Of a stretch of 64,000 bases of DNA, positions 4,883 to 45,106 are shown piece after piece; within the stretch, counting starts at the first letter, position 1; each line of letters opens with the position of its first letter. The DNA lies in contig JAGFJJ010000018.1 of NCBI GenBank assembly GCA_024102815.1, forward strand, positions 1-64,000, written 5' to 3'. The position numbers were made by a program, and so were the translations under genes. The notes under the pieces were generated by a model. The model worked only from the letters and a program-made list of their open reading frames with translations, was not told where the DNA came from and ran no database searches. Source of the stretch: Phycisphaerae bacterium. GTDB taxonomy: Bacteria > Planctomycetota > Phycisphaerae > UBA1845.

Positions 4883-5515
4883 CTAGTCGAGTACGACTTT
4901 GGTCGTATCCATTCCGACAAGTTGCGCCAACAATACAAGCTGTGCGAGGGAATTAGCCTGCATCTTCTGCATCACCCGTCCGCGATGCACCTTGATCGTC
5001 TTTTCGCTGATGTTCCACAGCTCGGCGATCTCGCGGTTGGTCTTGCCTGAGACCACTTGTGAGAGCACTTCTCGCTCGCGCCGGGTGAGCGAACGCAACC
5101 GCCGCTCGACTTCTTCCTTGCGAGTCCGCGACCGGCGGAACTCCTGATCCTCTCGTAGCGCCCGATGCACGGCCTCCAGCAAGAGCTGCTCGTTGAATGG
5201 TTTCTCGACAAAGTCCAGCGCGCCTGCCTTCATGGCCCGAACGGTTGTAGGCACATCCGCGTAAGCCGACATGAAGATGATGGGTATTGTCAGACTCCGC
5301 TCCGCCAGCGTGGCTTGCAGTTCGAGCCCGCTCGCACCCGACATGCGCACATCCAGAAGCAGGCAACCGGGCCGATCAGGATCGGCCCGGTCAAGAAAAT
5401 CCTGCGCCGACTCGAACGTCTCGGCGGGAATACGCTCATGCTCGAACAGCTGCGCGAGAACGCGACGGATGGACGCGTCGTCGTCAACGATAAACACCGT
5501 CGGCGGATTATTCAT
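4883..5515 (-). CDS. FixJ/NarL-type response regulator
   Basis: A 210-residue regulator with a receiver domain (D10-D12 acidic cluster, phospho-acceptor D55 in LLLDVRM, K105 in EKPF) and a C-terminal LuxR-type helix-turn-helix (about 140-205, LTRREREVLSQVVSGKTNRE then KTIKVHRGRVMQKM). The motif VKRGRVMxKM and receiver style are those of FixJ/TodT/StyR regulators. The start at 5515 overlaps the kinase stop by 8 bases, indicating translational coupling and a direct kinase-regulator pair. A longer start at 5548 would overlap further without a better ribosome site. Confidence 0.9.
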   Translation of the reverse strand: MNNPPTVFIVDDDASIRRVLAQLFEHERIPAETFESAQDFLDRADPDRPGCLLLDVRMSGASGLELQATLAERSLTIPIIFMSAYADVPTTVRAMKAGALDFVEKPFNEQLLLEAVHRALREDQEFRRSRTRKEEVERRLRSLTRREREVLSQVVSGKTNREIAELWNISEKTIKVHRGRVMQKMQANSLAQLVLLAQLVGMDTTKVVLD

Positions 5516-29841: not shown

Positions 29842-30005
29842 TGATGGAGCTGCGGACATTTCTCGATCGCTGACCTGCACGGCTGATTACATCGGCTTCA
29901 TATCGCATTACAGCCCGGTTCATCAGACGATCCTACCCTCCCTGTGGAAGTCCGAAGGCCATGCTCTTGCGCCCATTGGATTTCACAAGCGAGGAGTACG
30001 GCATC

Positions 30006-30734
30006 ATGTTGAGAAGTCTCTCGGATCTCCGGAATTACGCACTCTACGCCATCGACGGCAAGATCGGTTCGATACACGACCTCCTGTTCGATGATAAGTA
30101 CTGGACCCTTCGCTATTTTGTTGTGGATACGGGAACCTGGCTGCCCGGTCGAAGGGTATTAATCTCGCCTGTGGCGGTCGGCCGTGCGGATTGGTCCTCT
30201 CAGCAGATCCGTGTCCGGCTCACGCGGGATCGGATCAAGGAGGCTCCGGCGGTCAACGCCGACCCGCCGGTTTCGCGGCAGGAGGAGAATCGGCTCGCGT
30301 CCTTTTACGCGTGGCCGACGTACTGGGCGATGCGCGATCCACCGGTCATTCCTCCGCAGGAAGCGGCCGGCTACAGGGAAAAGGCGCACGCATCGTCCAA
30401 CGGCGATCCCCACCTGCGAAGTCTCCGCGAGGTCTCGGGCTATCACATCGTGACGCGCGACGGCGTGCAGGGTCACCTCGACGATCTGATTGGAGAGGAA
30501 GGCAGCTGGGGCATCCGTTACGTGGTCGTGGATACGCGAAACTGGTTGCCCGGCAAGCGTGTACTCCTGTCACCGAAGTGGATCGACAGCGTCAACTGGA
30601 GCCAGGCGCAGGTATTCGTCGACGTCACCAGCGAGCAGATCAAGGATGCACCGGCTTATGATCCGGCGATGCCGATCAACCGTGCGTACGAGACACGATT
30701 GTACGATGCGTACGGCAGGCCGACGGACCAATAG
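30006..30734 (+). CDS. Double PRC-barrel domain protein
   Basis: A 242-residue protein made of two PRC-barrel modules (about residues 1-100 and 130-225). Each has a L-R-S/Y-L-x-x-L/V-x-x-Y start, a D-G-x-x-G-x-x-x-D-L turn and a Y-x-V-V-D-T-x-x-W-L-P-G-x-x-V-L-x-S-P segment, so they arose by duplication. PRC barrels occur in photosynthetic reaction centre H subunits and in RimM-like RNA processing or adaptor proteins; role here unknown. The start at 30006 fits MLRSLSDL and a GAGGAG site nine bases upstream; a longer start at 29961 is possible. It is 19 bases before pfkB, so the two are likely co-transcribed. Confidence 0.82.
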   Translation: MLRSLSDLRNYALYAIDGKIGSIHDLLFDDKYWTLRYFVVDTGTWLPGRRVLISPVAVGRADWSSQQIRVRLTRDRIKEAPAVNADPPVSRQEENRLASFYAWPTYWAMRDPPVIPPQEAAGYREKAHASSNGDPHLRSLREVSGYHIVTRDGVQGHLDDLIGEEGSWGIRYVVVDTRNWLPGKRVLLSPKWIDSVNWSQAQVFVDVTSEQIKDAPAYDPAMPINRAYETRLYDAYGRPTDQ

Positions 30735-30753
30735 GCCATGAAAGGAATGGTGC

Positions 30754-31692
30754 GTGGAGCGGATCCTCACCGTGACCATGAATCCCGCCGTGGACAAGTC
30801 CACGCGGATCCGGGACGTCGCAGCAGAGCGGAAGCTGCGCTGCGAAACTCCGGTACGAGAGCCCGGAGGCGGGGGCATCAACGTATCGCGGGCCATTCAC
30901 AAACTCGGAGGAACATCGAAGGCACTTTGTCCGGCCGGCGGACCCACGGGCGAGATGCTCCAGAGCCTTCTCAAGGAGGAAGGCATTGAACTGACGCACG
31001 TTCCGATCGAGGGCTGGACGCGGGAAAACCTCACGGTCTTTGAACGATCCACCGAGCACCAGTACCGTTTCGGCATGCCCGGCGCGCGATTGAGCGAATC
31101 GGAATGGAATGCGTGCCTGTCACGAATTGAGGAGGCGGAAGAGTTCGATTTCGTGGTTTGCAGTGGCAGTCTTCCACCCGGCGTACCCGAAGACTTCTAC
31201 GCTCGTGTCGGCCGTGTGGCACGAAACATCGGAGCGAAATTTCTCCTGGATACGAGCGGACCCGCCCTCTCTCGCGCGGCCGAGACGGGCGCCTATCTGA
31301 TCAAACCCAACGTGAATGAGTTCCAGCACCTGACGGGCGAATCCCTGGAATCCGAGTCCCAGCAGGAAAAATTGGCAAAAAAGGTCATTTCGGAAGGGAT
31401 CTGCGAGGTGCTCGTGCTTTCCCTCGGCGCGGCCGGCGTGATGCTGGCGACCTCGGAGGGCATTGATCGCATTCGTTCTCCTTCCGTACCGATCCGCAGC
31501 AAAGTAGGTGCGGGCGACAGCATGATGGGCGCGATGGTGCTGGGGCTGGCGAGAGGGATGGACGTTCGGTCGGCTGTTCGATACGGTGTGTCCGCAGGCG
31601 CGGCCGCGGTGATGACGCCGGGGTCGGAGCTTTGTCGGGCAGAGGATGTGGACCATCTGTACCGGCAACTGGAGAAGTCTGGCGGAGCCTGA
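30754..31692 (+). CDS. pfkB: 6-phosphofructokinase II (PfkB type)
   Basis: A 312-residue PfkB-family sugar kinase that closely follows the layout of E. coli Pfk-2. It has an LTVTMNPAVDKS start, EPGGGGINVSRAI, PAGGPTGE and a GAGDSMMGAM motif with catalytic D255. It would phosphorylate fructose-6-phosphate to the 1,6-bisphosphate with ATP. The GTG at 30754 has an AAAGGAA site upstream. It lies 19 bases after the PRC-barrel gene and 23 before the AI-2E family gene, so a three-gene operon is likely. A 1-phosphofructokinase or tagatose-6-P kinase cannot be excluded, but no PTS genes accompany it. Confidence 0.88.
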   Translation: MERILTVTMNPAVDKSTRIRDVAAERKLRCETPVREPGGGGINVSRAIHKLGGTSKALCPAGGPTGEMLQSLLKEEGIELTHVPIEGWTRENLTVFERSTEHQYRFGMPGARLSESEWNACLSRIEEAEEFDFVVCSGSLPPGVPEDFYARVGRVARNIGAKFLLDTSGPALSRAAETGAYLIKPNVNEFQHLTGESLESESQQEKLAKKVISEGICEVLVLSLGAAGVMLATSEGIDRIRSPSVPIRSKVGAGDSMMGAMVLGLARGMDVRSAVRYGVSAGAAAVMTPGSELCRAEDVDHLYRQLEKSGGA

Positions 31693-31715
31693 GAACGTGA
31701 AGCACGAGAGGCTCC

Positions 31716-32864
31716 ATGCAGACAAGGGCACGCCGCAAAGGTTTTGCAGAGCCATCCATGCACGAGCCAGAAAAGCGAAGCCGATCCCTGGCAACGCTGC
31801 ACCTGTGGGAAATCGCAGCCCTTCGCGAGGTGATCATCCTCGTCCTTGCGTTGGGTCTGCTTTGGGCTGCGTACATGCTGCGCGGCGTGCTGTTCCCGAT
31901 TCTCGTCGCGATCGCCCTGGCCTATGTCGTTGATCCGGTCGTTACGGGTCTGCGTGCGCGGTATAGGTATCCGCGTACATTGACGGCACTGGCGATTCTC
32001 CTGCTCCTCATCGCGGGCCTCGCCGCCTTCGGGACATGGCTGATGCCCCGATTCGTCGAGCAGGTTCACCAGTTATCCGAAAAGGCGCCGGTGTACTGGG
32101 AGAAGCTGCGTCAGTACCTGCCGGACGCTGAAAACCTCCCGAGTCCCGCCGCGGCACTGGAATCTGTCGATCCTGGAACGGTTCTCCGCAGCACGATCGG
32201 CGGTGCGGGGCACGTGTTCGGTGTTCTCGGCGGCGTGATCGGATCGGCCGGGTATCTCGTCGTTGCAGGCATCCTCATTCCGATCCTTTTCGTGTTCTTC
32301 TCCGCTCGTTTCGATCGGATGAGAGATTTCCGTGAATACCTGCCTTCGACTCGCCGCGACCGAATCTGGGAACTGCTCTCCAAGATCGACGCGGCGTTCA
32401 GCGGCTACGTGCGAGGCCAGCTGGTCGTGGCGGTCTTCACGACGATGGGCTTCTGCGTCGGCTTCTCCCTTATCGGTGTTCCGTATTGGTTCGTGGTGAG
32501 TCTTGTCGGCGGCGTGCTCAGTCTCATTCCCTACGGGCAGTGTTCCGGTTGGATCCTGGCCATGCTCCTTCAGGGAGCAGAAACACTTGCAGGCGACCAG
32601 GCGTTCAGCTTCTTTGATGTGCTGCTGGCGCCATCACTGGTGTACCTGGTGACGCAGTCGTTGGAAACGTGGGTGATCACGCCGTTGGTGCAGGGGGAAT
32701 CCACACGGCTGCATCCGATCGTCGTACTGGTCTCGCTACTGGTGGGAGGTGCCCTGGCGGGCGTAATCGGGTTGATTCTCGCCATTCCCGTCACGGCTTC
32801 CGTACGTACGTTATTCCAGGAGCTTGCGGTGCCTCGATTAAGACGATGGGCGGAAGCCAACTGA
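31716..32864 (+). CDS. AI-2E family transporter (PerM/TqsA-like)
   Basis: A 382-residue integral membrane protein of the AI-2E transporter (UPF0118) family. It has a PILVAIALAYVVDPVV N-terminal hairpin, seven or so membrane helices, a soluble middle (about 115-225) and the VTQSLETWVITPLVQGESTR motif before the last helices. Members act as exporters or Na+/H+ antiporters, and some export AI-2. The substrate is unknown. It is the likely last gene of the PRC-pfkB operon. The start at 31716 has GAGAGG four bases upstream; 31758 is also possible. Confidence 0.83.
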   Translation: MQTRARRKGFAEPSMHEPEKRSRSLATLHLWEIAALREVIILVLALGLLWAAYMLRGVLFPILVAIALAYVVDPVVTGLRARYRYPRTLTALAILLLLIAGLAAFGTWLMPRFVEQVHQLSEKAPVYWEKLRQYLPDAENLPSPAAALESVDPGTVLRSTIGGAGHVFGVLGGVIGSAGYLVVAGILIPILFVFFSARFDRMRDFREYLPSTRRDRIWELLSKIDAAFSGYVRGQLVVAVFTTMGFCVGFSLIGVPYWFVVSLVGGVLSLIPYGQCSGWILAMLLQGAETLAGDQAFSFFDVLLAPSLVYLVTQSLETWVITPLVQGESTRLHPIVVLVSLLVGGALAGVIGLILAIPVTASVRTLFQELAVPRLRRWAEAN

Positions 32865-32928
32865 CCGGCGCAGCATCGAAGAGATTCAAACTATTAGAAT
32901 CGATACAACGCCCCGACCGTGGCGCCCT

Positions 32929-33000
32929 CCGGAAGCTGCCCTTCCGGCACAATGAATGCGCGGCCGCCTTGCCGCTTGGGCGTCCTTTCGCAAGACGCCC
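32929..33000. terminator. Paired hairpins between convergent genes (bidirectional terminator region)
   Basis: CCGGAAG/CTTCCGG (32929-32947, 5-base loop) and GGGCGTC/GACGCCC (32978-33000, 9-base loop) are two perfect 7-bp stems 30 bases apart. They lie between the AI-2E gene (+) and the GH65 gene (-). No T-runs are seen, but the position fits bidirectional transcription stop. Confidence 0.55.
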
Positions 33001-33004
33001 GGGT

Positions 33005-35446
33005 TCAGCTTGAACATCCCGCGTCGGTCGGAGGGGCAAGGTCGAACTCCCGCTGATCGCCCTCGTGGAAAACATGGACCTGATCCTGGAAACCGATTCT
33101 CGCCGGACCGGACCAACCGTGCTCAAAGCGAACCGTGAGCTTTTCGCGCGTCAGATCGACCTGCAGCCAGTGTCCGCGATAGCGAATCCGCTGACTCACG
33201 CCCCCCAGCTCCTCGGGCAGGCACGGATTGAACCAGAGCACATCGTCACGCATCTCGAGACCGGTGTGACATCGCTGGATGACGTCCACGGTGCCGGCCA
33301 TCGCACCGAGGTGGATGCCTTCCGGCGTGGTGCCTCCCTGGATGTCGGTGATGTCGCTTTCCAGGGCGTGCCGGAACAGTTGCCACGCCCGCTGGCGATC
33401 ACTCCGGGCAAGCACCCACGCGTGGACCACGCGACTGAGCGTCGAACCGTGCGAGGTTCGAGCCATGTAGTAATCGACGTTCCTGGGAATGATCTGCTGA
33501 GGATCGAATTCGTAATGCATATGCTCGAAGATGTCCTGCAACTCCTCGGCTGAGAACAGATAGAACAGCATGAGCACATCGGCCTGCTTGCTGGCCTTGT
33601 AGCGATTCGGCGTATCGCCCTCGGCTTCCAGGATCCGATCCAGTCGTTGGATGTCACCGTACTTCTCGCGGTACGCCTCCCAGTCGAACTCCTCCAGCTG
33701 CTCGTACCCTTCAAACTGTGAAATGATGCCATCGTCCTGAAACGGGACGAACATCTTTCGGCTCACCGTTTCCCATCGCTGAAACTCGTCGTCCGTGAGC
33801 TGAAGTTTCCTGGTCACCTCTTCCTTTCGGTCTTCGGCCAGCCACGCGAACGCCCGGCAGGCGGCACGAATACTCCATGCCGCCATGACGTTCGTGTACG
33901 CATTGTTGTTCAGACCGTGGCTTTCGCTGCCAGGATACCGCGTGTGAAACTCATCGGGACCGGCCACCTCGTGAATTTCGTATCGGTCCCGCTCCGCGTT
34001 GTAGCTTGCCATGCTGGCCCAGAATCGAGCGATTTCCAGCAGCATCTCCGCTCCGTAGAACGAGAGGAACTCCATATCGTCCGTCGCTTGCAGATACTGC
34101 CACACGTTGTACGCAATCGCCGCATTGATGTGCCGTTGCCGGTGGGTATTGTCGGGTATCCACCGACCCGACTCGGGATTGAGGTGCAGGACCTGGCTCT
34201 CTTCGCGTCCGGAGCTTCCACTTTGCCAGGGGAACATGGCTCCGCGGAAGCCTGACGCCTTCGCCGCGAGTCGAGCCTGGGGCAGACGGCGATAGCGGTA
34301 CATCAAGAGCGCCCGTGTCAGTTCCGGCATCCGCAGATCCAGGAACGGAAAAATAAACAGCTCGTCCCAGAAGATATGTCCGCGGTACGCTTCGCCATGC
34401 CACCCTCGAGCCGGGACACCGTTATCCTGATCGATTGAATTAAAACAAGCGGTCTGCAGCAGGTGGAAGATGTGCAATCGCAGCACGAGCTGCGGCCAGC
34501 TGTCCTCATCACGGATCGTGATGTCGGCCCGATTCCAGAGATGGGCCCATTCTCCGATATGAGAATCCAAGAGCACGCCGAACGGCTCGGCTTCGGCAAT
34601 CGCGTTGCAGGCCGCGATACGGGGATGGCTGATTGCGAAATCGCGCGAAGTGAATATCGCAACCGTCTTCTCCACCCGCAGGGGCCTTTCACGCTCGCAT
34701 TCAGCGAAGAGCCGCTGCTGTGCGATACCCTCCTCATCCGGCGTATGGCGCCGGACGCTGGCGAGGTCGTCCTCACGAAAAACACGCGTCCGGGCGGCCT
34801 GCACCATGCGGATGTTGGACTGGTTGCTCAGGACTTCGAGCCACACGCCGTCTTCACCCGTTTGACCGGATGCGACGACTTCCAAGTGCTTACCATTGAG
34901 CTTTCGATAGCGCTCGACCCCATCATTCACAACCGTGCCGTCCAGTGCAGACCGTATCTCGATCTCGCCACTCCAGTTTTCCGGTATCAATGTCCACTCG
35001 ATTGCCGCCAGATGGTGCTGGCCCATGCTGACGATCCGGCGACTGGCAAGCTTGGTCTTCCGATTGTCCTCATGCCGTATTCGGATGATCCTCTCAAGCA
35101 CGCCGGCACGCAGGTCGAGCGCCTGTTGAAAATCCAGAAGTTCTACGGAATCGATCCCTAGCCACGGACCGTCCCCAATTCGAAAGCTCAGGCAAAGCCA
35201 ATTCGGCCAGTTCACCAGGTCTTCATTCTCGATGATCCGGCCCGATACTTCGCTCTCGACACGGTTGTATCCCCCGGCGAGATAAGTACCCGGATAGTGC
35301 TTGCCCCCGGCCTGGACCTCTTCCGCAGCGCCTCGAGTAGCGAAATATCCATTCCCGAGCGTGCAAAGCGCCTCCCGCAGCGGTTGCGCCTGTGGATCCC
35401 AGCCATCATAAGTAAGGAACCATCGCTTGTCCTTTGGAGTGTCCAT
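33005..35446 (-). CDS. Glycoside hydrolase family 65 phosphorylase
   Basis: An 813-residue GH65 protein, the family of maltose, trehalose and kojibiose phosphorylases. Features in order: N-terminal beta-sandwich (to about residue 270), a helical linker, the (alpha/alpha)6 barrel with the general acid E499 in GPDEFHT, HGEAYRGHIFWDELF, YKASKQADVLM, and TSHGSTLSRVVHAW, the phosphate-binding loop that marks phosphorylases as opposed to hydrolases. It would yield beta-glucose-1-phosphate plus glucose or glucan. No beta-phosphoglucomutase is next to it, which is unusual. The start at 35446 (MDTPKDKRWF) gives the family N-terminus; a TTG at 35491 is possible. It is divergent from malQ. Which disaccharide is used is not clear. 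Confidence 0.9.
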   Translation of the reverse strand: MDTPKDKRWFLTYDGWDPQAQPLREALCTLGNGYFATRGAAEEVQAGGKHYPGTYLAGGYNRVESEVSGRIIENEDLVNWPNWLCLSFRIGDGPWLGIDSVELLDFQQALDLRAGVLERIIRIRHEDNRKTKLASRRIVSMGQHHLAAIEWTLIPENWSGEIEIRSALDGTVVNDGVERYRKLNGKHLEVVASGQTGEDGVWLEVLSNQSNIRMVQAARTRVFREDDLASVRRHTPDEEGIAQQRLFAECERERPLRVEKTVAIFTSRDFAISHPRIAACNAIAEAEPFGVLLDSHIGEWAHLWNRADITIRDEDSWPQLVLRLHIFHLLQTACFNSIDQDNGVPARGWHGEAYRGHIFWDELFIFPFLDLRMPELTRALLMYRYRRLPQARLAAKASGFRGAMFPWQSGSSGREESQVLHLNPESGRWIPDNTHRQRHINAAIAYNVWQYLQATDDMEFLSFYGAEMLLEIARFWASMASYNAERDRYEIHEVAGPDEFHTRYPGSESHGLNNNAYTNVMAAWSIRAACRAFAWLAEDRKEEVTRKLQLTDDEFQRWETVSRKMFVPFQDDGIISQFEGYEQLEEFDWEAYREKYGDIQRLDRILEAEGDTPNRYKASKQADVLMLFYLFSAEELQDIFEHMHYEFDPQQIIPRNVDYYMARTSHGSTLSRVVHAWVLARSDRQRAWQLFRHALESDITDIQGGTTPEGIHLGAMAGTVDVIQRCHTGLEMRDDVLWFNPCLPEELGGVSQRIRYRGHWLQVDLTREKLTVRFEHGWSGPARIGFQDQVHVFHEGDQREFDLAPPTDAGCSS

Positions 35447-35746
35447 TGCTTTTGAAATGATGAGCTTCCCCGAGAGGTCTACCTTTTCCAATTATCGCGC
35501 GGAGCAATCATTGCTGTTCCCATTACCGACATGCCGAATGACGGGACGGTTACAACAGGATTTCTTCGCGGCAAGGTTCTGGATTCATTACTTCCAAGTC
35601 TATTCAAGCCCTGACCACATGATGATGACGGCGTTGTTATCTCGAAGATTGCTCATGTTAAGCAAGAGACGATCATTGACCATGGATTGAGGTCTCCTCA
35701 CAGCGTACCCTGGAGCTCGATCCCGACCCATGAAAGGTCCGCAGCC
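35447..35746. other. Divergent spacer between the GH65 gene and malQ
   Basis: These 300 bases hold no gene I can support. They are more AT-rich than the flanks, as expected for a divergent regulatory region. I cannot assign confident -35/-10 boxes. The GH65 and malQ genes would be controlled from here, perhaps jointly. Confidence 0.5.
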
Positions 35747-37318
35747 ATGTTGAACCAAAGAGCCAGTGGAATCCTGCTACATCCCACGTCGTTGCCCGGT
35801 CCGCATGGAATCGGCGACATCGGTCCCGAGGCGTATCGATTCGTGGACCTGCTGGAAAAGACAGGCCAATCGCTCTGGCAGGTCCTGCCGCTGGGGCCAA
35901 CCGGCTATGGCAATTCTCCTTACATGTCTTTCTCGGCCTTCGGCGGCAATCCCCTGCTGATCAGCCCGGACCTGCTGAGAGAAGAGGGGATGCTGGCTGC
36001 CGAGGACCTGAAAGACCGACCGCGGTTCTCCGAAGGCCGGGTCGAATATGAAAGCGTCATTCATTACAAGTACGATCTGCTGGAAAAGGCATACCGGCAA
36101 TTCCGCCAGGAATCGTCCGGGAGGCTCCCGGCCGACTTCTATTCCTTCTGCGAGCGGAACGCCTTCTGGGTCGAGGATTATGCTTTATTCATGTCCCTCA
36201 AGGAAGCTCATGAACAGCGGGTCTGGTCGGAATGGGAAGAGAGCGCGGCCCGCCATGTTACGGCGTCGCTCGCTCGGTGGCGAAATGAGCTGGCCGATCG
36301 AATCCAGTTTCGAAAATTTCTTCAGTATATCTTCTTCAAACAGTGGTGCGCCCTGAAGGACTATTGCCACGAGCGGAACATACGGATCATTGGCGACATC
36401 CCGATCTACGTAGCCTACGACAGCGCAGAGGTTTGGGCCAATTCCCATTTATTCCATCTGGACGAACAGGGGGATCCCATCGTCGTCGCGGGCGTACCGC
36501 CCGATTATTTCAGTAGCACTGGTCAGCGATGGGGTAACCCGATCTACCGCTGGGAGGCCATGGCCGAGCGCGGATTTCAGTGGTGGATCGAGCGTTTTCG
36601 GATGAACTTTGCGCTGGCGGACGTCGTCCGCCTTGACCATTTTCGCGGCTTCGAGGCGTACTGGGAAGTCCCCGCGAGCGAGGAAACAGCGACCAACGGC
36701 CGATGGGCGAGGGGCCCGGGGGCGCAGTTGTTCTACGCCGTGGCCGAAGCGCTCGAACGCCTCGGCATCGAATTCGACGTCATCGCCGAGGACCTCGGCG
36801 TCATCACGCCGGACGTCGATGAACTCCGTGACAAGATGGGCTTTCCGGGCATGCGGATCTTGCAGATGGCGTTTGGAAACGATCCCAAGGCCGCGGATTA
36901 CAAGCCTCACAACTACGACAAGAAGTGCGCGGCCTATACCGCAACGCACGATCATAACACGACGGCCGGGTGGTTCACTGCGGAACCGGGTTCACAGACG
37001 ACCCAGACACCGCAAGAGATCGAAGCAGAACGCCGGCTCGCCATGGAGTACGTTGGCAGCGACGGGCATGAGATTCACTGGGATTTCATCCGCCTCGTGT
37101 TGGCGTCGGTAGCCAACACGGCGATCGTCCCGATGCAGGATTTGCTCGGATTGGGTACCGAGTCTCGGATGAATCGCCCCGGGAGCGCATCCGGTAACTG
37201 GGAGTGGCGACTCCACGCAGGCGCCGTGACGTCCGAGGTGAGCGACCGACTGCGGGAGTTGACGAATCTGTATGGGCGCAAGCAGAATTCCCCGGACGAC
37301 CCGTCTCCGGAGAAATAA
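35747..37318 (+). CDS. malQ: 4-alpha-glucanotransferase (amylomaltase)
   Basis: A 523-residue GH77 amylomaltase that rearranges alpha-1,4-glucans into longer chains and free glucose. The start MLNQRASGILLHPTSLPGPH is the family N-terminus. The nucleophile is D297 in VRLDHFRGF, the acid/base is E348 in VIAEDLG, and the third carboxylate is D402 in ATHDHNT. Length matches the family. The ATG at 35747 has a GAAAGG site. It is 12 bases upstream of the SemiSWEET gene, with which it forms an operon, and divergent from the GH65 phosphorylase, so the set works on alpha-glucan or maltose. Confidence 0.93.
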   Translation: MLNQRASGILLHPTSLPGPHGIGDIGPEAYRFVDLLEKTGQSLWQVLPLGPTGYGNSPYMSFSAFGGNPLLISPDLLREEGMLAAEDLKDRPRFSEGRVEYESVIHYKYDLLEKAYRQFRQESSGRLPADFYSFCERNAFWVEDYALFMSLKEAHEQRVWSEWEESAARHVTASLARWRNELADRIQFRKFLQYIFFKQWCALKDYCHERNIRIIGDIPIYVAYDSAEVWANSHLFHLDEQGDPIVVAGVPPDYFSSTGQRWGNPIYRWEAMAERGFQWWIERFRMNFALADVVRLDHFRGFEAYWEVPASEETATNGRWARGPGAQLFYAVAEALERLGIEFDVIAEDLGVITPDVDELRDKMGFPGMRILQMAFGNDPKAADYKPHNYDKKCAAYTATHDHNTTAGWFTAEPGSQTTQTPQEIEAERRLAMEYVGSDGHEIHWDFIRLVLASVANTAIVPMQDLLGLGTESRMNRPGSASGNWEWRLHAGAVTSEVSDRLRELTNLYGRKQNSPDDPSPEK

Positions 37319-37330
37319 GAGGAACGCACG

Positions 37331-37939
37331 ATGTCGCATGTCTACTGGACGATCATTGGTTCGACTGCGGCCCTGCTGACAAGCTTTGGTTTCCTGCCGC
37401 AGGTTCTCAAGATGTGGCGGCGGCGTTCCGTCGGGGATGTAAGCCTCGGGACGCTCGGCCAGTTCGCGGTCGGCGTCTGCCTCTGGGCACTGTACGGCTG
37501 GTACCTTCGTGATGCCGTTCTCATCAGTGCAAATCTGCTCACCCTCGTCACATTGCTGGTGGGGCTGGCCCTCTTCTTTCGCTTCCGACGTGCACCCGCG
37601 GGCGGCATCCTGCAGGGAGCCTTACGCGGGGCGGAGGAGCTTGGAGTGGACCCGGCGATCGCCGTTCAGAAGAGCGCCAAGGGCCTGATGCATGCGACCT
37701 ACGAAGCAGGTGGTGACCTTGCGGCGGTGACGCAATTGGCGATTGCAGAAGCCTTCGAAGCCGCCCAATCGGCGGACCTCTTCATGACGCCCGAAAAGGC
37801 AGTGAACGCCGCTGCCATCGGGGTCATGGAGGCAGCCAGGGAGTTCGACGAAGAAGCGGCGAACAGGGTCCGAAAGGCCCTGTCCCAGGCGCTCGACGAC
37901 GCCTCGCTGCAGCAAACACCCTCCGTGCAGACGGCATGA
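37331..37939 (+). CDS. SemiSWEET sugar transporter with a C-terminal helical domain
   Basis: A 202-residue protein in two parts. Residues 1-90 form a three-helix MtN3/SemiSWEET repeat with the PQ motif at 23-24 (FGFLPQVLKMW), a class of small sugar uniporters that work as dimers. Residues about 95-195 are soluble, rich in Ala and Glu, with two similar helical units (LGVDPAIAVQKSAKGLMHAT, then FMTPEKAVNAAAIGVMEAAR) that look like an internal duplication. I know no domain for this part. An AGAGGAA ribosome site precedes the ATG. It is 12 bases after malQ, which suggests that it moves glucose or maltose across the membrane for the enzyme. Confidence 0.85.
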   Translation: MSHVYWTIIGSTAALLTSFGFLPQVLKMWRRRSVGDVSLGTLGQFAVGVCLWALYGWYLRDAVLISANLLTLVTLLVGLALFFRFRRAPAGGILQGALRGAEELGVDPAIAVQKSAKGLMHATYEAGGDLAAVTQLAIAEAFEAAQSADLFMTPEKAVNAAAIGVMEAAREFDEEAANRVRKALSQALDDASLQQTPSVQTA

Positions 37940-38248
37940 TGTGCGTTCTTCCCCGCCGCATTGCGATCGACCGACGATCGTGTCTCGCGAGACCCATCGG
38001 CTTGAACGTGGACCCTGAATTACGACGCATGATTGGAAAGCGCGCATTCCGACAGCAGGCAGCCGCAGGGAATCGAGGAACGGAAAGCGCAGCGGCCGAA
38101 ATCGGTGTTCGGAGAGGGTCGCGCTGAACGCTCAGGGAATACGTTGGCCTCGATATCGGTTCGCTACGACGGTTGGTAGCTCACAGTGTTGGCCCAAGAT
38201 CATCTGGAGGAGACCCTCCTACGTGATGTGCTGGAGCTGCAATGGCGA
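37940..38248. other. Intergenic region, no gene seen
   Basis: These 309 bases between the convergent SemiSWEET and acidic-protein genes have no gene I can support. The palindrome GTCTCGCGAGAC lies near 37980-37992. No T-tract terminator is obvious. Confidence 0.5.
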
Positions 38249-38551
38249 TTATTCATCGTCTTGGTCGATCGCATCCGCATCGCCTTCGATCTCGCCGCCG
38301 GTTTGGGCAACCTCGATCATCTCCTTGAGCTCATCGACATCGTCTGCGGCTTCCAGTTCGACGCGGACTACGGAGAGGTCTGTCTCATGTGCGGTACCGG
38401 CCGCGATCTCCCAATCCCACTTTCCGTGCAGCACTTCCTCTCGAGAGTCTGCATCCACGGCGATGACAACCTCGGCCTCGGCGAGCAGATCCTTCCCGAA
38501 ACCGGCCCGCAATTCTTCCATCGAAATAATGTCATGCTCAAAAGTGCTCAT
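38249..38551 (-). CDS. Small acidic hypothetical protein
   Basis: A 100-residue acidic protein (MSTFEHDIISMEELRAGFGK, then VVIAVDADSREEVLHGKWDW) ending in a Glu/Asp-rich tail. The sequence has alternating strands and a helix. I do not recognise a family. The ATG at 38551 has a GGGAG site seven bases upstream. It starts 42 bases after the methyltransferase stop on the same strand, probably as its operon partner. The opposite strand has a long open frame through here, but it lacks domain signals. Confidence 0.55.
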   Translation of the reverse strand: MSTFEHDIISMEELRAGFGKDLLAEAEVVIAVDADSREEVLHGKWDWEIAAGTAHETDLSVVRVELEAADDVDELKEMIEVAQTGGEIEGDADAIDQDDE

Positions 38552-38593
38552 GCGAACACTCCCTTGTTCCAGGAACTCCACGGGTCGGCTGGA

Positions 38594-39385
38594 CTAGTTG
38601 ATGTCACGACGCTTACGACCCACGACCGCAACGTAATGGAGAGCCTCACCGCTCGTGCTGAGCCGATGCTGGTAGCGCTTCTGGTTGCAAATCTCGAAGT
38701 CGCCCCGATCGGCAACGGTCCGGATGAGTCCCGAGAACCCCGACCGGTCGTTTCCGTTCAGGAAATCTTCCTTGATATTGAAGGCGACCCAGCCCCCGTC
38801 GCAGACCAGATTGAAAGCGGTAACAAATGCGGCCGTGGGAATGTCCCCGAACCCCAGCGCCGCGACACAGGTCATCGCGTTGAACGAGTGACTCCTCAGC
38901 TTCCTGCTCTGATGCGCGTCCAGGTCAGTCAGGTCCGCGACCTGGTAGTCCGCGTACACGTCGGGCCGGTCGCGCTTCGCGGCGCTCGCCGCCTCCCGAA
39001 TGATGTCGGTGCCCACAATGAACTCGACACCCATGCGTGCCAACTCTTCGCCAACCATCCCGTTTCCCGCGCCGACGTCCAGCACACGAAGATTGCTCGG
39101 CGGCGACCCCGAAGACCGAAGTTCGGCCGACAGCAGCCCGCATACAACCTGGGGCGAATTGCATTTGAGGATGTCGTAGAACAGCTTCTCGTAAAGCCCC
39201 GGTATCCCGTATATCTCCGCGTAGTCATGGAACCGGATCTGCCGCCACGAGCCTCCTTGCCTAACGACACACCACTCGGCGTCTTGTGATAGCGATAGAC
39301 TCGGTTCCGGCAGGGCAATAATCGGGGCATCCCTGCCGTTTCTCCGTGAACAGACGTCCGAGGTCGGTTTTGTGTGTGTAAGCAT
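38594..39385 (-). CDS. Class I SAM-dependent methyltransferase
   Basis: A 263-residue protein with the SAM motif I NLRVLDVGAGNGMVGEEL (about residues 97-115), an acidic loop (VGTDI), and a LNGNDRSGFSGLIRTVADR region before the end. The first 90 residues, which include YAEIYGIPGLYEKLFYDILK, are a lid-like N-terminal part. The substrate is unknown. The ATG at 39385 has a GGAAAGG site. The MarR gene lies upstream on the same strand, 30 bases away, so the three may form one operon. Confidence 0.8.
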   Translation of the reverse strand: MLTHTKPTSDVCSRRNGRDAPIIALPEPSLSLSQDAEWCVVRQGGSWRQIRFHDYAEIYGIPGLYEKLFYDILKCNSPQVVCGLLSAELRSSGSPPSNLRVLDVGAGNGMVGEELARMGVEFIVGTDIIREAASAAKRDRPDVYADYQVADLTDLDAHQSRKLRSHSFNAMTCVAALGFGDIPTAAFVTAFNLVCDGGWVAFNIKEDFLNGNDRSGFSGLIRTVADRGDFEICNQKRYQHRLSTSGEALHYVAVVGRKRRDIN

Positions 39386-39415
39386 TCATTACCTTTCCAG
39401 GGCTTCCCTGAAGTT

Positions 39416-39997
39416 CTACGTCGTGTGTCCCACCGCGGGACGGCGTCGATTCTTGTTCTCGCGAACACGGCTATCGGGTGTCTTCTCGAAAGTTGTCTCT
39501 GGACCGCTGGGCGCGGGGCCGGGAATCGGCTCGATCGCCAGGATGGGGGACGCGTCAGCCGTATCGACATCCATCATCTCGGCAATCCGCTTCAGAGAGG
39601 CCAGCGTCTGAAGCCGCTCCCAGTCCTTGAGCTTTCCCAGTTCCGCACGGAACCGATCCTGCAGAAGAGACGGCGCACTTTGCAGGGCGCTCAGGCCGCC
39701 CGATGTCACCGAGATGGCCGTGCTGCGCCCGTCCGTATCGTGCGGCCGACGCTCAATGAATCCGGCGCTTTCCAATCGGTGAATGATTCCGCTCAACGTC
39801 GCCTGGCTCAGACGCATCTCTTTCGCGAGGCGGGATAGGGAACACGGCCCCAATCGTGACGCGGCGCGAAGCGTGGCCAGCTGCGGCCAAGTCAACCCCA
39901 CGGCGTGATAAAGTTGCCGGGAATGATGATCTACGCCGCGAATGATCCCCCGCAGGGCTTGTACGATCTCCTCCTCGACGGTCAGTTCGTTGGTCAA
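39416..39997 (-). CDS. MarR-family transcriptional regulator
   Basis: A 193-residue regulator with a MarR winged helix: QLATLRAASRLGPCSLSRLA, then SQATLSGIIHRLESAGFIER, and the wing in HDTDGRSTAISVT. A dimerisation helix precedes it and a helix follows, with an added C-terminal tail of about 45 residues (EPIPGPAPSGPETTFEKTPD and onward). The TTG at 39997 is preferred because GGAG lies seven bases upstream and a consensus promoter would otherwise be inside the reading frame; an ATG at 40087 gives a longer version. It probably controls the methyltransferase operon, or the divergent D-LDH gene. Confidence 0.85.
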   Translation of the reverse strand: MTNELTVEEEIVQALRGIIRGVDHHSRQLYHAVGLTWPQLATLRAASRLGPCSLSRLAKEMRLSQATLSGIIHRLESAGFIERRPHDTDGRSTAISVTSGGLSALQSAPSLLQDRFRAELGKLKDWERLQTLASLKRIAEMMDVDTADASPILAIEPIPGPAPSGPETTFEKTPDSRVRENKNRRRPAVGHTT

Positions 39998-40019
39998 AGC
40001 GATTCTCCGAGCGCCCGGA

Positions 40020-40047
40020 TTTATATCGTCCACGAAGTATAATCCAA
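40020..40047 (-). promoter_or_regulatory. Predicted promoter of the MarR gene
   Basis: TTGGAT (40047-40042) and TATAAA (40025-40020) on the minus strand lie 16 bases apart. The start would be about 15-20 bases upstream of the proposed TTG. It supports the shorter MarR start. Confidence 0.55.
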
Positions 40048-40106
40048 CGGGAGCACCCTGCAAAGCGCGCTGCTCCAATGATCGCAACCATCGTTATTTC
40101 AGACGA

Positions 40107-40355
40107 TTATCGGATGTTCCGGCAAGCCGCCTGCGACCTTGAATTCCGATCGCACGCCGACTTACTTTGTGCAGTAATTATCTTCGCCGCGGCCTGCCGT
40201 ACGTCATTGACCACACCGGTTAGGGTCGTTTGCTGCGCCGCCCGCACGGCCGCGCTCACGGCGCCCCTCATGGGAAGTCGGACAACGGATTGCGACGCTG
40301 GCTCATTACGCGCGATCAATCCGGCTTCCATTTCGTGTTCATTCTGCAACGGCAT
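40107..40355 (-). CDS. Hypothetical 82-residue protein
   Basis: A small frame starting MPLQNEHEMEAGLIARNEPA, with an Ala/Thr/Gln-rich helical middle (RGAVSAAVRAAQQTTLTGVV) and a Ser/Arg-rich tail. GGGAG lies six bases before the ATG. I do not recognise it. It faces away from the D-LDH gene and towards the MarR gene. It may be a chance open frame. Confidence 0.3.
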   Translation of the reverse strand: MPLQNEHEMEAGLIARNEPASQSVVRLPMRGAVSAAVRAAQQTTLTGVVNDVRQAAAKIITAQSKSACDRNSRSQAACRNIR

Positions 40356-40402
40356 ATTCACTCCCGGACGGGGGCGAGCCCCTCCGACATCGGGAGGTTG
40401 AG

Positions 40403-41413
40403 ATGAGAATCGGCGTATTCGAAGTTGAATCATGGGAACGGGAGGGACTCGAGCGGCTCAGTGAGAGCCACGATGTGCGCCTGACCCGGGAGCCACTTCG
40501 CGGAAGGAACGCGGAGGAATTCAGTGACATCGAGGTTGCCGTTCCCTTCATCTACTCCCAGCTCGACGCACCGGTGCTGGAGAAGCTACCGCAGCTCAAG
40601 CTCGTCAGCACTCGCTCCACCGGTATCAACCATATCGACGCGGATGTTTGCGCCGCCCGCAAAATAACCATCTGCAACGTGCCGAACTACGGCGAGAATA
40701 CGGTTGCCGAGCACGTCTTCGCCTTACTCCTGACCATCAGCCACAAGGTTCACGATGCCATCGATCGCACGCGGAAAGGCGATTTCTCATTCGAGGGTCT
40801 CCGCGGGTTCGACCTTGCCGGCAAGACAATCGGGGTGATCGGCACCGGCAGCATCGGCGAGCACGTCATCCGCATCGCTCTGGGATTCGGAATGCGCGTC
40901 GTGGCCTTCGACACCAGGCAGCGCGACGATCTGGCGCGCGAGCTGGGATTCGAGTACAAGTCGCTTAACGATCTGCTGGGCAAATCCGACGTCATTACGC
41001 TTCATGTGCCCGGCTCGCCCAAAACGCAGCACATGATCGGGCACGAGCAGTTCAACCAAATGAAGCGCGGAACCGTTCTGATCAACACGGCCCGCGGCAG
41101 CGTGGTCGACACCCGTGCGATGATGCAGGCCCTCGCAGACGGGCGCCTCCTGGCCGCCGGCCTCGATGTACTCCCTGAGGAACCGACGGTCCGCGAGGAA
41201 GCCGAGCTGCTGCACTCGATGTTCCAGAAAGAGCACGACCTGGAAATGTTGTTGGCCGACCACGTGCTACTGAGGCAGCGAAACGTGTACATCACGCCTC
41301 ACACGGCCTTCTGCACGAAGGAGGCGGTGCAGCGCATCATCGACGTGACAGTGCACAACATTGGCGCCTTTCAGCGTGGCGATCCGCAGAATGTGGTCGT
41401 AGCAAGTTCATAG
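40403..41413 (+). CDS. D-lactate dehydrogenase-like 2-hydroxyacid dehydrogenase
   Basis: A 336-residue NAD-dependent D-isomer 2-hydroxyacid dehydrogenase. It has an NAD motif GTGSIG (147-152), the substrate Arg R231 in NTARGSVVD, E260 in DVLPEEP, and catalytic H300 in ITPHTAF. The RSTGINHID part and C-terminal insertion (about 265-295) match D-lactate dehydrogenases, which reduce pyruvate to D-lactate and reoxidise NADH. Other substrates are possible. A strong GGGAGGT site precedes the ATG. It is followed after 160 bases by a phosphoglycerate mutase, which supports a role in anaerobic glycolysis. Confidence 0.86.
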   Translation: MRIGVFEVESWEREGLERLSESHDVRLTREPLRGRNAEEFSDIEVAVPFIYSQLDAPVLEKLPQLKLVSTRSTGINHIDADVCAARKITICNVPNYGENTVAEHVFALLLTISHKVHDAIDRTRKGDFSFEGLRGFDLAGKTIGVIGTGSIGEHVIRIALGFGMRVVAFDTRQRDDLARELGFEYKSLNDLLGKSDVITLHVPGSPKTQHMIGHEQFNQMKRGTVLINTARGSVVDTRAMMQALADGRLLAAGLDVLPEEPTVREEAELLHSMFQKEHDLEMLLADHVLLRQRNVYITPHTAFCTKEAVQRIIDVTVHNIGAFQRGDPQNVVVASS

Positions 41414-41573
41414 CGGGAGGAAATTGCGGTAGCAGTCAAGGCTCAGGATCGGAGGCACCGGTTGGGCATTCCGCAATCAGGCGATTCCCGAGACGACAGC
41501 CAAGGAGGTCAACGAACTCTTCCGACAAGGTGCCAAAGGACAGGCGGCCTGATCGGTCACACGGATAAAGCAC

Positions 41574-42791
41574 ATGAAATCGAGCTTCGCGTTGGTGAAT
41601 AAGCTCCGGCAGTCTGGCGAAACGCATGTTGTTCTGGTTGTGATGGACGGCCTCGGCGGGCTCCCGCGACAGCCTGACGGGCCGACCGAGCTCGAAGCCG
41701 CCCGTACACCCAATCTCGATGAACTGGCCCGCCGCGGCATCTGCGGCCTGCACGAACCCGTCGGCACCGGCATCACGCCCGGCAGCGGCCCCGGGCATTT
41801 GGCCCTGTTCGGCTATGATCCGGTCGAGTACGAAATCGGCCGCGGCGTGTTGTCAGCGCTGGGGAGCGAATTTGAGCTTACCCAGCGCGACGTGGCGGCT
41901 CGCGGAAATTTCTGCACGGTGGACGACGAGGGTCGCGTAACGGACCGCCGGGCCGGGCGCATCAGCACCGAGCAAAACGAGGCGCTGTGCGAGCGACTAC
42001 GCCAGATCAGAATTCCAGGCGTCGAGCTGTTCGTGGAGACCGTCAAGGAGCACCGTTTCCTGGTCGTGCTTCGGGGCGACGGTCTTTCCGACGAATTGGG
42101 CGACACCGATCCGCAGCGCACGGGAGTCAAGCCGCTCGAACCGCACACCACCGGCAATTCCAAGGAAGCTGCCGCGACGACCGACCACCTCCGCCGATTC
42201 GTCGAGCAGGCCCGCCAGGCGCTGCACGATCAGCACCCCGCCAATATGGTGCTCTTGCGCGGCTTCGCCAGACTCCCCGACTGGCCTGGTTTTCCCGATG
42301 TCTTCGGCCTCCGACCCGCCGCCCTGGCCGACTATCCCATGTACCGCGGTGTCGCCAAGCTCGTCGGTATGCAGGCCCTGAAAACTGGAACGACCATCGA
42401 AGAAAAGGCGCAAACCGCCCGCCAGCACTGGAATGACTTCGACTTCTTCTTCTTCCACCACAAGCGCACCGACAGCAGCGGTGAGGACGGCGACTTCGAT
42501 CGCAAAGTGCGCGAGATCGAGAAGGTCGACCAGGCGCTCCCCCACATCCTCGACCTCGCCCCGGATGTCATCCTCGTGACCGGCGATCATTCCACGCCCG
42601 CGAAATTGAAGGCGCATAGCTGGCATCCCGTGCCGGCCCTGCTCTGTGCTGCCAATGCCCGGCCCGATACCGTGGAGACCTTTGGTGAGAGAGCGTGCCA
42701 ATCCGGGGCGCTCGGTCCGCGCTTCCCCGCACACCACCTGATGCGCCTGGCGCTCGCCCACGCCGGCCGGCTCGCCAAGTTCGGGGCTTGA
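41574..42791 (+). CDS. apgM: 2,3-bisphosphoglycerate-independent phosphoglycerate mutase, archaeal type
   Basis: A 405-residue alkaline phosphatase-fold mutase of the archaeal type. It interconverts 3- and 2-phosphoglycerate without 2,3-BPG. Metal ligand D25 is in VVMDGLGG, the phosphoserine nucleophile is S71 in TPGSGPGHLAL, and the C-terminal metal motif is VTGDHSTPAK. FFFHHKRTDSSGEDGDF gives further ligands. The archaeal-type enzyme is an alternative to GpmI/GpmA and often turns up in bacteria with stress or anaerobic gene sets. It lies after the D-LDH gene on the same strand and may be co-transcribed. Confidence 0.92.
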   Translation: MKSSFALVNKLRQSGETHVVLVVMDGLGGLPRQPDGPTELEAARTPNLDELARRGICGLHEPVGTGITPGSGPGHLALFGYDPVEYEIGRGVLSALGSEFELTQRDVAARGNFCTVDDEGRVTDRRAGRISTEQNEALCERLRQIRIPGVELFVETVKEHRFLVVLRGDGLSDELGDTDPQRTGVKPLEPHTTGNSKEAAATTDHLRRFVEQARQALHDQHPANMVLLRGFARLPDWPGFPDVFGLRPAALADYPMYRGVAKLVGMQALKTGTTIEEKAQTARQHWNDFDFFFFHHKRTDSSGEDGDFDRKVREIEKVDQALPHILDLAPDVILVTGDHSTPAKLKAHSWHPVPALLCAANARPDTVETFGERACQSGALGPRFPAHHLMRLALAHAGRLAKFGA

Positions 42792-43047
42792 TTCCGCCCG
42801 TTGGTACTGCGACGACGATTTGCTGTCTCCGTTGTGCTCACGCCTCCCAACGACGGAATATAGAGAGATGGCTGATGCTTGCCCTTGCTGAGAACGCCTG
42901 AAGCCCCCGCGACGCATGTCTTGCATCGGGGCAATCTTGCACCGGATTACGCTCCGCTCATCCCGATTTTCACCTCCGATCAGCCCTTTGTCGGATAATT
43001 CTCTTGTGAATGGAGGACCATTACATCCACGAGAAGGAGAAGAAATC

Positions 43048-43296
43048 GTGAAGACCGCGGAGAAGCAATACGAGAAGATCGGAGCAACCAAGGGCTGTGC
43101 AGATCACGACCATGATCTGATTCAGGAGCTGGACAAGCGCCTGGATGCGGTGTGGCGCATGGACCAGTACATCAACAACGCCGAGGGAAAGTCGCAGATT
43201 CGTGAGTTCTGGACACAACTGAAGAATCAGGAACAGCAGAGCGTCAATCAGCTCAAGGATCTGGTTGCCAAGGAGGTCAAGGAAGGCTGCTTCTGA
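43048..43296 (+). CDS. Small helical protein
   Basis: An 82-residue protein, (M)KTAEKQYEKIGATKGCADHD, then HDLIQELDKRLDAVWRMDQY, mostly helical and polar, with two Cys (CADHD and GCF at the end) and a HDHD cluster. It may be a small four-helix or metal-binding protein, but I do not recognise it. The GTG at 43048 has an AGAAGGAGAAG site seven bases upstream; an ATG at 42916 gives a longer version with an unlikely N-terminus. A long hairpin follows 75 bases later. Confidence 0.6.
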   Translation: MKTAEKQYEKIGATKGCADHDHDLIQELDKRLDAVWRMDQYINNAEGKSQIREFWTQLKNQEQQSVNQLKDLVAKEVKEGCF

Positions 43297-43370
43297 TCAC
43301 CCCGACCCTGACTGTTTCCGGTAAGCACAGACCGTCCCTCAGAAACGCCCCTGCGAAACCCTATATGGAT

Positions 43371-43400
43371 GGAGAGAGTAGCGCAGGGGCTACTCTTTCT
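43371..43400 (+). terminator. Long hairpin after the small helical-protein gene
   Basis: A 12-base stem with two G-T pairs (43371-43382 with 43389-43400) surrounds a GCAGGG loop. It contains AGTAGC/GCTACT. Pyrimidine-rich sequence follows, but no clean T-run. It ends the small protein's transcript before the symporter. Confidence 0.6.
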
Positions 43401-43519
43401 CTCTGCCCGCGCACACGAGAACCCCGATTCGGAGAGCGCGCCAGCACGATGGTGCGCTCTCCACACAAGGCGACCTCATTGCGGTTGGACCGCCGGAAAT
43501 GACCGAGTAAACTCGGCGC

Positions 43520-45106
43520 ATGCCAACGCTACATGTCAGCGCTGTGGATGTGTGGATTCTCGTCGTTTATGTGATCGGGACAAGGATCCTCTTCAGTTGG
43601 TACTTCGCGCGCAAGACACAGACGGGTTCCGAGCAGTACTTTCTGGCGGGGCGGAAGCTGCGCTGGCCCGTCATCGGCCTGTCCTTTTACGTCGCCAACA
43701 TGAGCGGAGCGAGCTTCGTAGGCCTTGCCGGAAGCGGTTATCACAGCGGCATCGCCGTCTACAACTACGAATGGCTCCCGGCCGTCATCCTCGTGTGCTT
43801 CGTCGTCTTTCTGCTTCCGCTTTATCTGAAGCAGCGCGTATTTACGGCACCCCAATACCTCGAACATCGATATGGCCGTAGTTGCCGCCTGGCGTTCTCC
43901 GGCTTCCTGTTGCTCGCCAACATCTTCATTGACGCCGCGGTCGGGCTTTACGGAGGTGCCTTGGTCGTCCAGGCCGTCTACCCGAACCTTTCGCTCTTTC
44001 TCATCATCGCGGTCATTTCTCTCATCACAGGACTCTATATCTTCTTCGGTGGTCTGGGTGCCGTTATTATCAACGACGCCCTGCAGGCCGCCCTGATTTT
44101 GATCGGCGGAGCCGTGGTCACGTTTCTCGCCTGGCGCAAAATTCCTTCCTGGGAGGCCGTCCGCCAGGCGTCGCCGCCCGAGGCATTTCACCTCATTCAG
44201 CCCGCAAACGATCCACTGATGCCCTGGCCCGGGCTGGTAACCGGCGTGCTGGTGATCGGCATCTACTTCTGGTGCATGAACCAGACCATTATTCAGCGGG
44301 CCCTCGGAGCAAGGTCGCTTGATCACGCGCGATGGGGCTCACTCTTCGCCGCCGCCCTCAAGATCCCCAATCTCTTCCTTTTTGTGCTCCCGGGCCTCAT
44401 GGCGGCCGCGCTGTACCCGTCCCTCGAGAAACCTGACCTCGCCTTTCCGGTGCTGGCCTTCGATCTACTGCCCGTCGGATTGCGCGGCGTGCTGCTCGCT
44501 GCTGTCGCCGCAGCCATATTCTCCAGCCTGGAGGCCATACTCAATTCCGCGTCCACGCTCTTTACGATGGATTTTGTTCATACGCTGCGACCCCACGCCA
44601 GCGACCGGACCCTCATGAACACGGGCCGTGCCGCCACCATCGCCTTTATGATCATCGCCGCTGCCTGGGCTCCACAAATCGCCCGTTTCCCGACCCTCTG
44701 GCAATACGCCCAGTCCCTCCTGGCCTACGTGACGCCGCCCGTTGTAGTCATCTTCATGTTCGGCCTGTTTTGGAGGCGGGCCAACTGTCCCGCAGCGGTG
44801 ATCACGCTTACGGCGTGCGTGCCCGTGGGCGCCGCATGGTGGATCATCAATGACTTGCTCGCCTGGACGTCGGTCCAGTTTCTCTATGGTTGCGGCGTGA
44901 CCTTCCTCTTCAGCGCCGCCGTTTTCGTTCTTACGGCGTATCTGACCGAACCTCCGCCGCAAAGCGTGCTGCAACACATGTGGCATCCGTCCATCTGGCG
45001 CGAGGAATCCCGTGATCTGCACGGTACGCCCCGGCACAGGAATTACCGCTGGCTCGCCGCCATCCTGCTTCTGGTCACGGCCGGCGTTGTGGTTTGGTGG
45101 GCTTGA
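43520..45106 (+). CDS. Sodium:solute symporter family protein
   Basis: A 528-residue member of the SSS/SGLT family with about 13-14 membrane helices. It has the SEQYFLAGRKL turn, YVANMSGASFVGLAGSGY, an LKIPNLFLFVLPG segment, and TRHxxxQR-like WCMNQTIIQRALGARS. Members import sugars, amino acids or other solutes with Na+; the SGLT-like start and helix 6-7 make a sugar plausible. It would link to the nearby alpha-glucan and glycolysis genes. The ATG at 43520 gives a short N-terminal tail before helix 1. A ribosome site is not obvious. Confidence 0.88.
   Translation: MPTLHVSAVDVWILVVYVIGTRILFSWYFARKTQTGSEQYFLAGRKLRWPVIGLSFYVANMSGASFVGLAGSGYHSGIAVYNYEWLPAVILVCFVVFLLPLYLKQRVFTAPQYLEHRYGRSCRLAFSGFLLLANIFIDAAVGLYGGALVVQAVYPNLSLFLIIAVISLITGLYIFFGGLGAVIINDALQAALILIGGAVVTFLAWRKIPSWEAVRQASPPEAFHLIQPANDPLMPWPGLVTGVLVIGIYFWCMNQTIIQRALGARSLDHARWGSLFAAALKIPNLFLFVLPGLMAAALYPSLEKPDLAFPVLAFDLLPVGLRGVLLAAVAAAIFSSLEAILNSASTLFTMDFVHTLRPHASDRTLMNTGRAATIAFMIIAAAWAPQIARFPTLWQYAQSLLAYVTPPVVVIFMFGLFWRRANCPAAVITLTACVPVGAAWWIINDLLAWTSVQFLYGCGVTFLFSAAVFVLTAYLTEPPPQSVLQHMWHPSIWREESRDLHGTPRHRNYRWLAAILLLVTAGVVVWWA

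Follow-up and report, generated by a model that had tools for sequence, protein, structure and literature searches.

Few known sugar transporters are as small as SemiSWEETs. In Planctomycetota, they are typically found as open frames of about 85–117 amino acids, and the members with solved structures (PF03083/PF04193; 4rng, 4qnc, 4x5m) share with the protein described here a PQ motif, a pocket with Trp, Asn, and Thr, and likely three membrane helices and a homodimeric state. Duplications into SWEET-like proteins and a location in carbohydrate operons, including neighbours coding for alpha-amylase and alpha-glucosidase, are described in the available text of two papers on SemiSWEET diversity, which mentions no fusion of a SemiSWEET with a soluble helical domain (PMC5972207, PMC5742349); the available text of the former also regards the physiological roles of SemiSWEETs in bacteria as unproven (PMC5972207). 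In mycobacteria, PacL proteins, which combine a membrane part with a cytosolic Ala-rich repeat region, organise transporters into platforms (PMC9374683).

The protein analysed here differs from typical SemiSWEETs of its phylum in carrying 115 extra residues with a folded helical domain. Its likeness to PacL, i.e., a membrane part followed by an Ala-rich repeat region that is probably cytosolic, serves as an analogy for how this tail might work, and no sequence relationship is claimed. PacL lacks a transporter fold, exists as a protein of its own, and has a metal-binding end, and the Pfam scan of our protein revealed no match to DUF1490 (PacL).

The fusion gene and its locus

The window, i.e., the whole stretch of 64,000 nucleotides that was analysed, covers positions 1–64000 of a 111 kb contig belonging to a metagenome-assembled genome of 5.09 Mb (95% complete, 3.7% contamination), with the binning of the contig judged only from its own genes. 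Proteins of the window displayed the motif CGYNLRGL...GRCPECGE, which is common in Planctomycetota; together with the taxonomy recorded for class relatives that have the tail family (see below), this motif suggests that the genome is that of a planctomycete. The fusion gene starts with ATG, 12 bases 3' of the malQ stop codon, and as judged from the sequence both genes are likely co-transcribed; the true start of malQ is likely the ATG at 35747. Matches to promoters and terminators close to the gene were not counted as evidence. A carbohydrate and energy cluster (29961–45106) surrounds the gene, comprising genes for a PRC-barrel protein, a PfkB kinase, an AI-2E family transporter, GH65, MalQ, the fusion itself, a MarR regulator, a D-2-hydroxyacid dehydrogenase, a phosphoglycerate mutase, and an SSF symporter.

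Table 1. Coordinates of the fusion gene, its parts and neighbours, and related loci in other genomes
Feature	Position	Strand	Basis or remark
Gene for SemiSWEET with helical-repeat tail, 202 aa	37331..37939	+	ORF; coding-type composition in both halves
SemiSWEET domain, residues 6–87: three predicted membrane helices, PQ at 23–24, pocket T17, W52, N68	37346..37591	+	Pfam, NCBIfam, solved structures, residue check
Helical-repeat domain, residues 91–195	37601..37915	+	By sequence homologous to C-terminal part of stand-alone family; AlphaFold2 model
Repeat unit 1, residues 92–115 (GILQGALRGAEELGVDPAIAVQKS)	37604..37675	+	
Repeat unit 2, residues 116–137 (AKGLMHATYEAGGDLAAVTQLA)	37676..37741	+	
Repeat unit 3, residues 138–161	37742..37813	+	Two-residue insertion compared to homologues
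Repeat unit 4, residues 162–183	37814..37879	+	Family end signature G-x-hydrophobic-E-(A/G)-A...VR
Probable ribosome binding site GAGGA	37319..37323	+	7 bases 5' of ATG, directly 3' of malQ stop (37316–37318); read from sequence
malQ, 4-alpha-glucanotransferase (GH77), directly 5' of fusion gene	35687..37318	+	PF02446, 4.3e-182
GH65 family glycoside hydrolase or phosphorylase, divergent from malQ	33005..35491	-	PF03632, 3.1e-133
SemiSWEET-dCache-HAMP-PAS loci	L077:1870-4062; L079:2864-5050; L080:1669-3531	-; +; -	Also in genomes G281 and G447
Clusters of stand-alone tail relatives	L034:577-6073; L033:770-4365; L036:3697-7484	-; +; +	With HMA_2 proteins and DUF5132

SemiSWEET half

Residues 6–87 matched PF04193 (PQ-loop; 1.5e-8, 34.7 bits, cut-off 22) and PF03083 (MtN3_slv; 7.5e-7, 29.5 bits, cut-off 23.7), and based on these profiles we assign them to the Pfam SemiSWEET family, in agreement with the original prediction, which had read residues 1–90 as a SemiSWEET with a PQ motif. 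The NCBIfam model NF037968 (SemiSWEET_2) reached 9.2e-20 and 70.6 bits over the same residues, below its cut-off of 80, and this label is not claimed. Solved SemiSWEETs aligned to residues 8–91 (4rng, 1e-10; 9kax, 6.8e-10; 4qnc, 7.2e-10). Eleven conserved positions of LbSemiSWEET are named in the available text of PMC5972207, nine of which are kept, including T17, W52, and N68, as is the PQ motif (P23, Q24); the two changed ones correspond to M37 (T41 here) and P59 (V63 here) of LbSemiSWEET. Both the loop between the first and second membrane helix (KMWRRRSV) and the end of this half (FRFRR) are basic, a positive-inside pattern that would fit three membrane helices and a cytosolic C-terminus. 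In the AlphaFold2 model, this half is of low confidence because the underlying alignment held no SemiSWEET rows. By its profile matches and conserved residues, the SemiSWEET protomer encoded by the gene is complete and very probably capable of transport. A SemiSWEET match in another genome of the same family (7.6 Mb, 500 contigs) was located on a contig (L081, G018:C213) whose other genes look archaeal and which is possibly a binning contaminant.

The helical-repeat tail

A short linker (about residues 88–90) leads to the tail, which consists of four units of 24, 22, 24, and 22 residues and a last helix. Comparison of the tail with itself peaked at lag 46 (z 3.8; the maximum over all lags was reached by 1.2% of shuffles) and gave z 2.2 at lag 22, whereas stand-alone homologues reached z 6.7–10.6 at lag 22, with peaks at lags 22/44/66 (z up to 10.6) indicating an underlying unit of 22 residues. 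The periodicity at 22 is weaker in the window protein and its peak lies at 46 because units 1 and 3 have 24 residues, i.e., two extra. Thus, the two similar helical units originally proposed reflect a true duplication with a period of 46 residues, but their number has to be corrected to four plus the last helix.

The AlphaFold2 model revealed helices at residues 90–104, 108–125, 130–146, 154–172, and 174–195 with a pLDDT of mostly 75–94. Neither a hydrophobic stretch nor a cysteine was present in the tail, which is probably a separate, cytosolic helical domain. Foldseek resulted in no match under E 0.001, and the closest solved structures in VIA-align were mainly designed helical-repeat proteins with Z 9–10.7, below the 13 advised for helical bundles; with rows of this kind, a natural structural counterpart of the modelled tail is neither claimed nor excluded. 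Residues 88–202 gave no match in Pfam and NCBIfam, the Pfam scan of the whole protein detected no catalytic domain and no known sensor domain, a ligand-binding fold or motif was likewise not found, and PHROGs contained no match for the whole protein or for two stand-alone members. Identity with Phasin (PF09361) was rejected, since the tail had no Pfam match and one relative reached only E 0.1 and 13.2 bits (cut-off 24.9). Taken together, an anatomy of SemiSWEET, short linker, and a 22-residue helical-repeat domain with four units and a closing helix can be regarded as nearly certain.

Stand-alone relatives of the tail

The 22-residue repeat also builds a family of stand-alone proteins of about 160–240 amino acids, scattered in Planctomycetota, so that the earlier view of the tail as no known domain holds for Pfam and NCBIfam, but not in the sense of a tail unlike anything else. 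Searching 392 genomes of the phylum with the whole protein matched SemiSWEETs and these 160–240 amino acid proteins, the latter through the tail only and with whole-sequence E-values of 1e-12 to 1e-6 among the ORFs of the fetched loci. The profile search proposed originally for residues 95–202 was performed with a nine-sequence tail profile and identified the family in 14 of the 392 phylum genomes and in 4 of 298 class genomes, with the window counted in both; class relatives with the tail family are recorded as Phycisphaerae and Phycisphaerales. Without the window row, the profile scored the window tail at 65.2 bits, compared to a maximum of 15.9 among 20,000 shuffled tails, a score somewhat favoured by rows that had been found with the window sequence and co-aligned with it. 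Members outside the building set were recovered as well (genomes G704, G735, and G743; 1e-25 to 2e-35). Matches in G735, G743, and G227 that extended into the SemiSWEET half were dismissed as chance alignments of N-terminal repeat units.

A search with the tail only in 51 genomes of the family and 114 of the order returned the window alone. Scanning of patterns from the closer alignment (A4) led to three named Planctomycetota records, the mixed alignment (A3) being too diverse for such a scan. Scanning 84,980 species genomes, and also viral contigs, for peptide patterns of the whole protein yielded no relative, a result that excludes close relatives only, as near-exact 8-residue peptides are needed, and a plasmid search with two stand-alone members gave no match. 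Stand-alone proteins (e.g., in JABMSA010000147.1, JAGXKT010000015.1, and CAIQIQ010000062.1) aligned over the full length of the tail with about 30% identity and showed the same repeat unit and end signature; unlike the window protein, they lack a membrane part, and their number of units reaches up to twice that of the tail. By this comparison, the tail is homologous to their C-terminal part, and their N-terminal units are missing from the window protein.

Other SemiSWEET fusions

SemiSWEETs had been expected to stand alone, which did not hold as a rule. In several anammox-like genomes that belong to a single family, probably Brocadiaceae as judged from genome size and gene content, a SemiSWEET precedes dCache_1, HAMP, and one or two PAS domains in proteins of 620–730 amino acids without an output domain. 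These share with the window protein an N-terminal SemiSWEET and a large added module, although their module of dCache sensor, HAMP, and PAS is unrelated to the helical tail. At L079, the next gene after the sensor fusion (5072-5356, + strand) encodes a stand-alone SemiSWEET.

Origin of the fusion and role of the tail

No second ORF with both parts was detected in the order, class, and phylum samples (several hundred Planctomycetota genomes), nor did the 114 order genomes contain another tail or another fused SemiSWEET, and the fusion may be a singleton. Candidate fusions were rejected in G469 (726-aa frame, 9e-4), a GC-rich open frame with no convincing SemiSWEET, and in G685 and G556, where SemiSWEET-like frames lacked the tail. 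The lack of a homologue with both parts, named beforehand as an argument against the fusion, weakens a reading of conserved function, but leaves the join standing because each half has homologues of its own; as the fusion stems from one metagenome-assembled genome, no conservation shows that the combination was selected. This sole copy in an assembly with the completeness and contamination given above would also fit a sequencing, assembly, or frameshift artefact that joined two neighbouring genes, which we nevertheless regard as very improbable. The SemiSWEET half (0.61/0.46/0.74) and the tail half (0.74/0.47/0.76) have similar GC contents at the three codon positions (malQ 0.61/0.44/0.73), and therefore one frame is coding throughout; a full tail gene of its own would lack a suitable in-frame start, the earliest candidate downstream of the SemiSWEET being a GTG at residue 106, and the remaining frames of the window contain no fragment of the tail family. 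Thus, the frameshift considered in the original prediction found no support, and the join looks genuine, an artefact being unlikely even with only one metagenome-assembled genome at hand. A recent and nearly neutral fusion, in which a SemiSWEET gene became joined to the 3' portion of a gene for a repeat protein, gaining a tail of little function, deserves more weight, though we consider it unlikely: the singleton state among the genomes searched and the missing N-terminal units speak for it, while frame, coding composition, repeat pattern, and end signature have been kept at only about 30% identity to any relative, which suggests long maintenance and not fresh drift.

We favour, with a probability of roughly 40%, a function of the tail in scaffolding or assembly, because it is a tandem helical repeat without sign of an active site and because of the analogy to mycobacterial PacL; a binding role also fits better than an enzymatic one, as the tail has neither cysteines nor a catalytic-domain match. 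From its family membership and its positive-inside pattern, the SemiSWEET half would be expected to dimerise into a facilitator for glucose-like sugars with a cytosolic C-terminus, and, following the SemiSWEET dimer, two tail copies would hang beneath each pore, binding each other or a partner and thereby clustering the transporter or holding it near cytosolic machinery, without catalysis. The sugar side may serve the adjacent maltodextrin metabolism, in which MalQ releases glucose. This whole chain, from the dimeric facilitator to a scaffold tail serving maltodextrin metabolism, is put forward just as tentatively as the scaffold role. Gating or regulation of the pore by the tail, which would alter SemiSWEET activity upon binding a metabolite, metal, or protein under stress, seems rather doubtful to us: the recurrent sensor fusions in Brocadiaceae-like genomes set a precedent for coupling to a signal module, and several stand-alone relatives adjoin stress or metal genes, but the tail itself lacks a ligand-binding fold or motif, a cysteine, and a known sensor domain. 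We consider docking of MalQ to the tail, through which the transporter would receive the glucose that MalQ sets free from maltodextrins, to be improbable. The short gap on the same strand and a ribosome binding site of its own after the malQ stop fit co-transcription, yet adjacency of genes is not physical contact, and in the fetched DNA with its short flanks malQ was absent beside other tail-family or SemiSWEET loci, i.e., as far as seen there, its adjacency to the fusion is not conserved. Returning to the scaffold role, a broader version, in which a planctomycete family of intracellular scaffolds has become attached to a sugar facilitator as a built-in assembly platform concentrating sugar transport beside maltodextrin enzymes, is speculative and hardly likely as a whole.

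A natural fusion of SemiSWEET and tail, together with the separate sensor fusions, offers a handle on the working partners of SemiSWEETs. Moreover, the tail brings to light an unnamed and uncharacterised family of planctomycete helical-repeat proteins that are accessible to separate expression and study, and the recurrent sensor-transporter architecture of SemiSWEETs may merit its own study.

Neighbours of the stand-alone relatives

The genes next to stand-alone relatives varied and included those for a P-type cation ATPase with HMA_2 and DUF5132, GroEL, HSP20-like, and rubrerythrin-like proteins, and MscS, where the names GroEL, HSP20, and rubrerythrin were read from the sequence with no profile search. 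They point to stress and not to sugar, which counts against the sugar-linked scaffold chain favoured above, and no single function emerges. Three clusters (see Table 1) were located in genomes that appear to be Brocadiaceae-like, and those of L034 and L036 also encode a P-type cation ATPase of 1030 aa that begins with an HMA_2-like part; DUF5132 was not named in the literature searched. In two genomes, similar-looking lipoprotein-like genes were found near stand-alone relatives (L094:3227-3829, L032:5053-5652) and, judged by eye, possibly represent a conserved neighbour.
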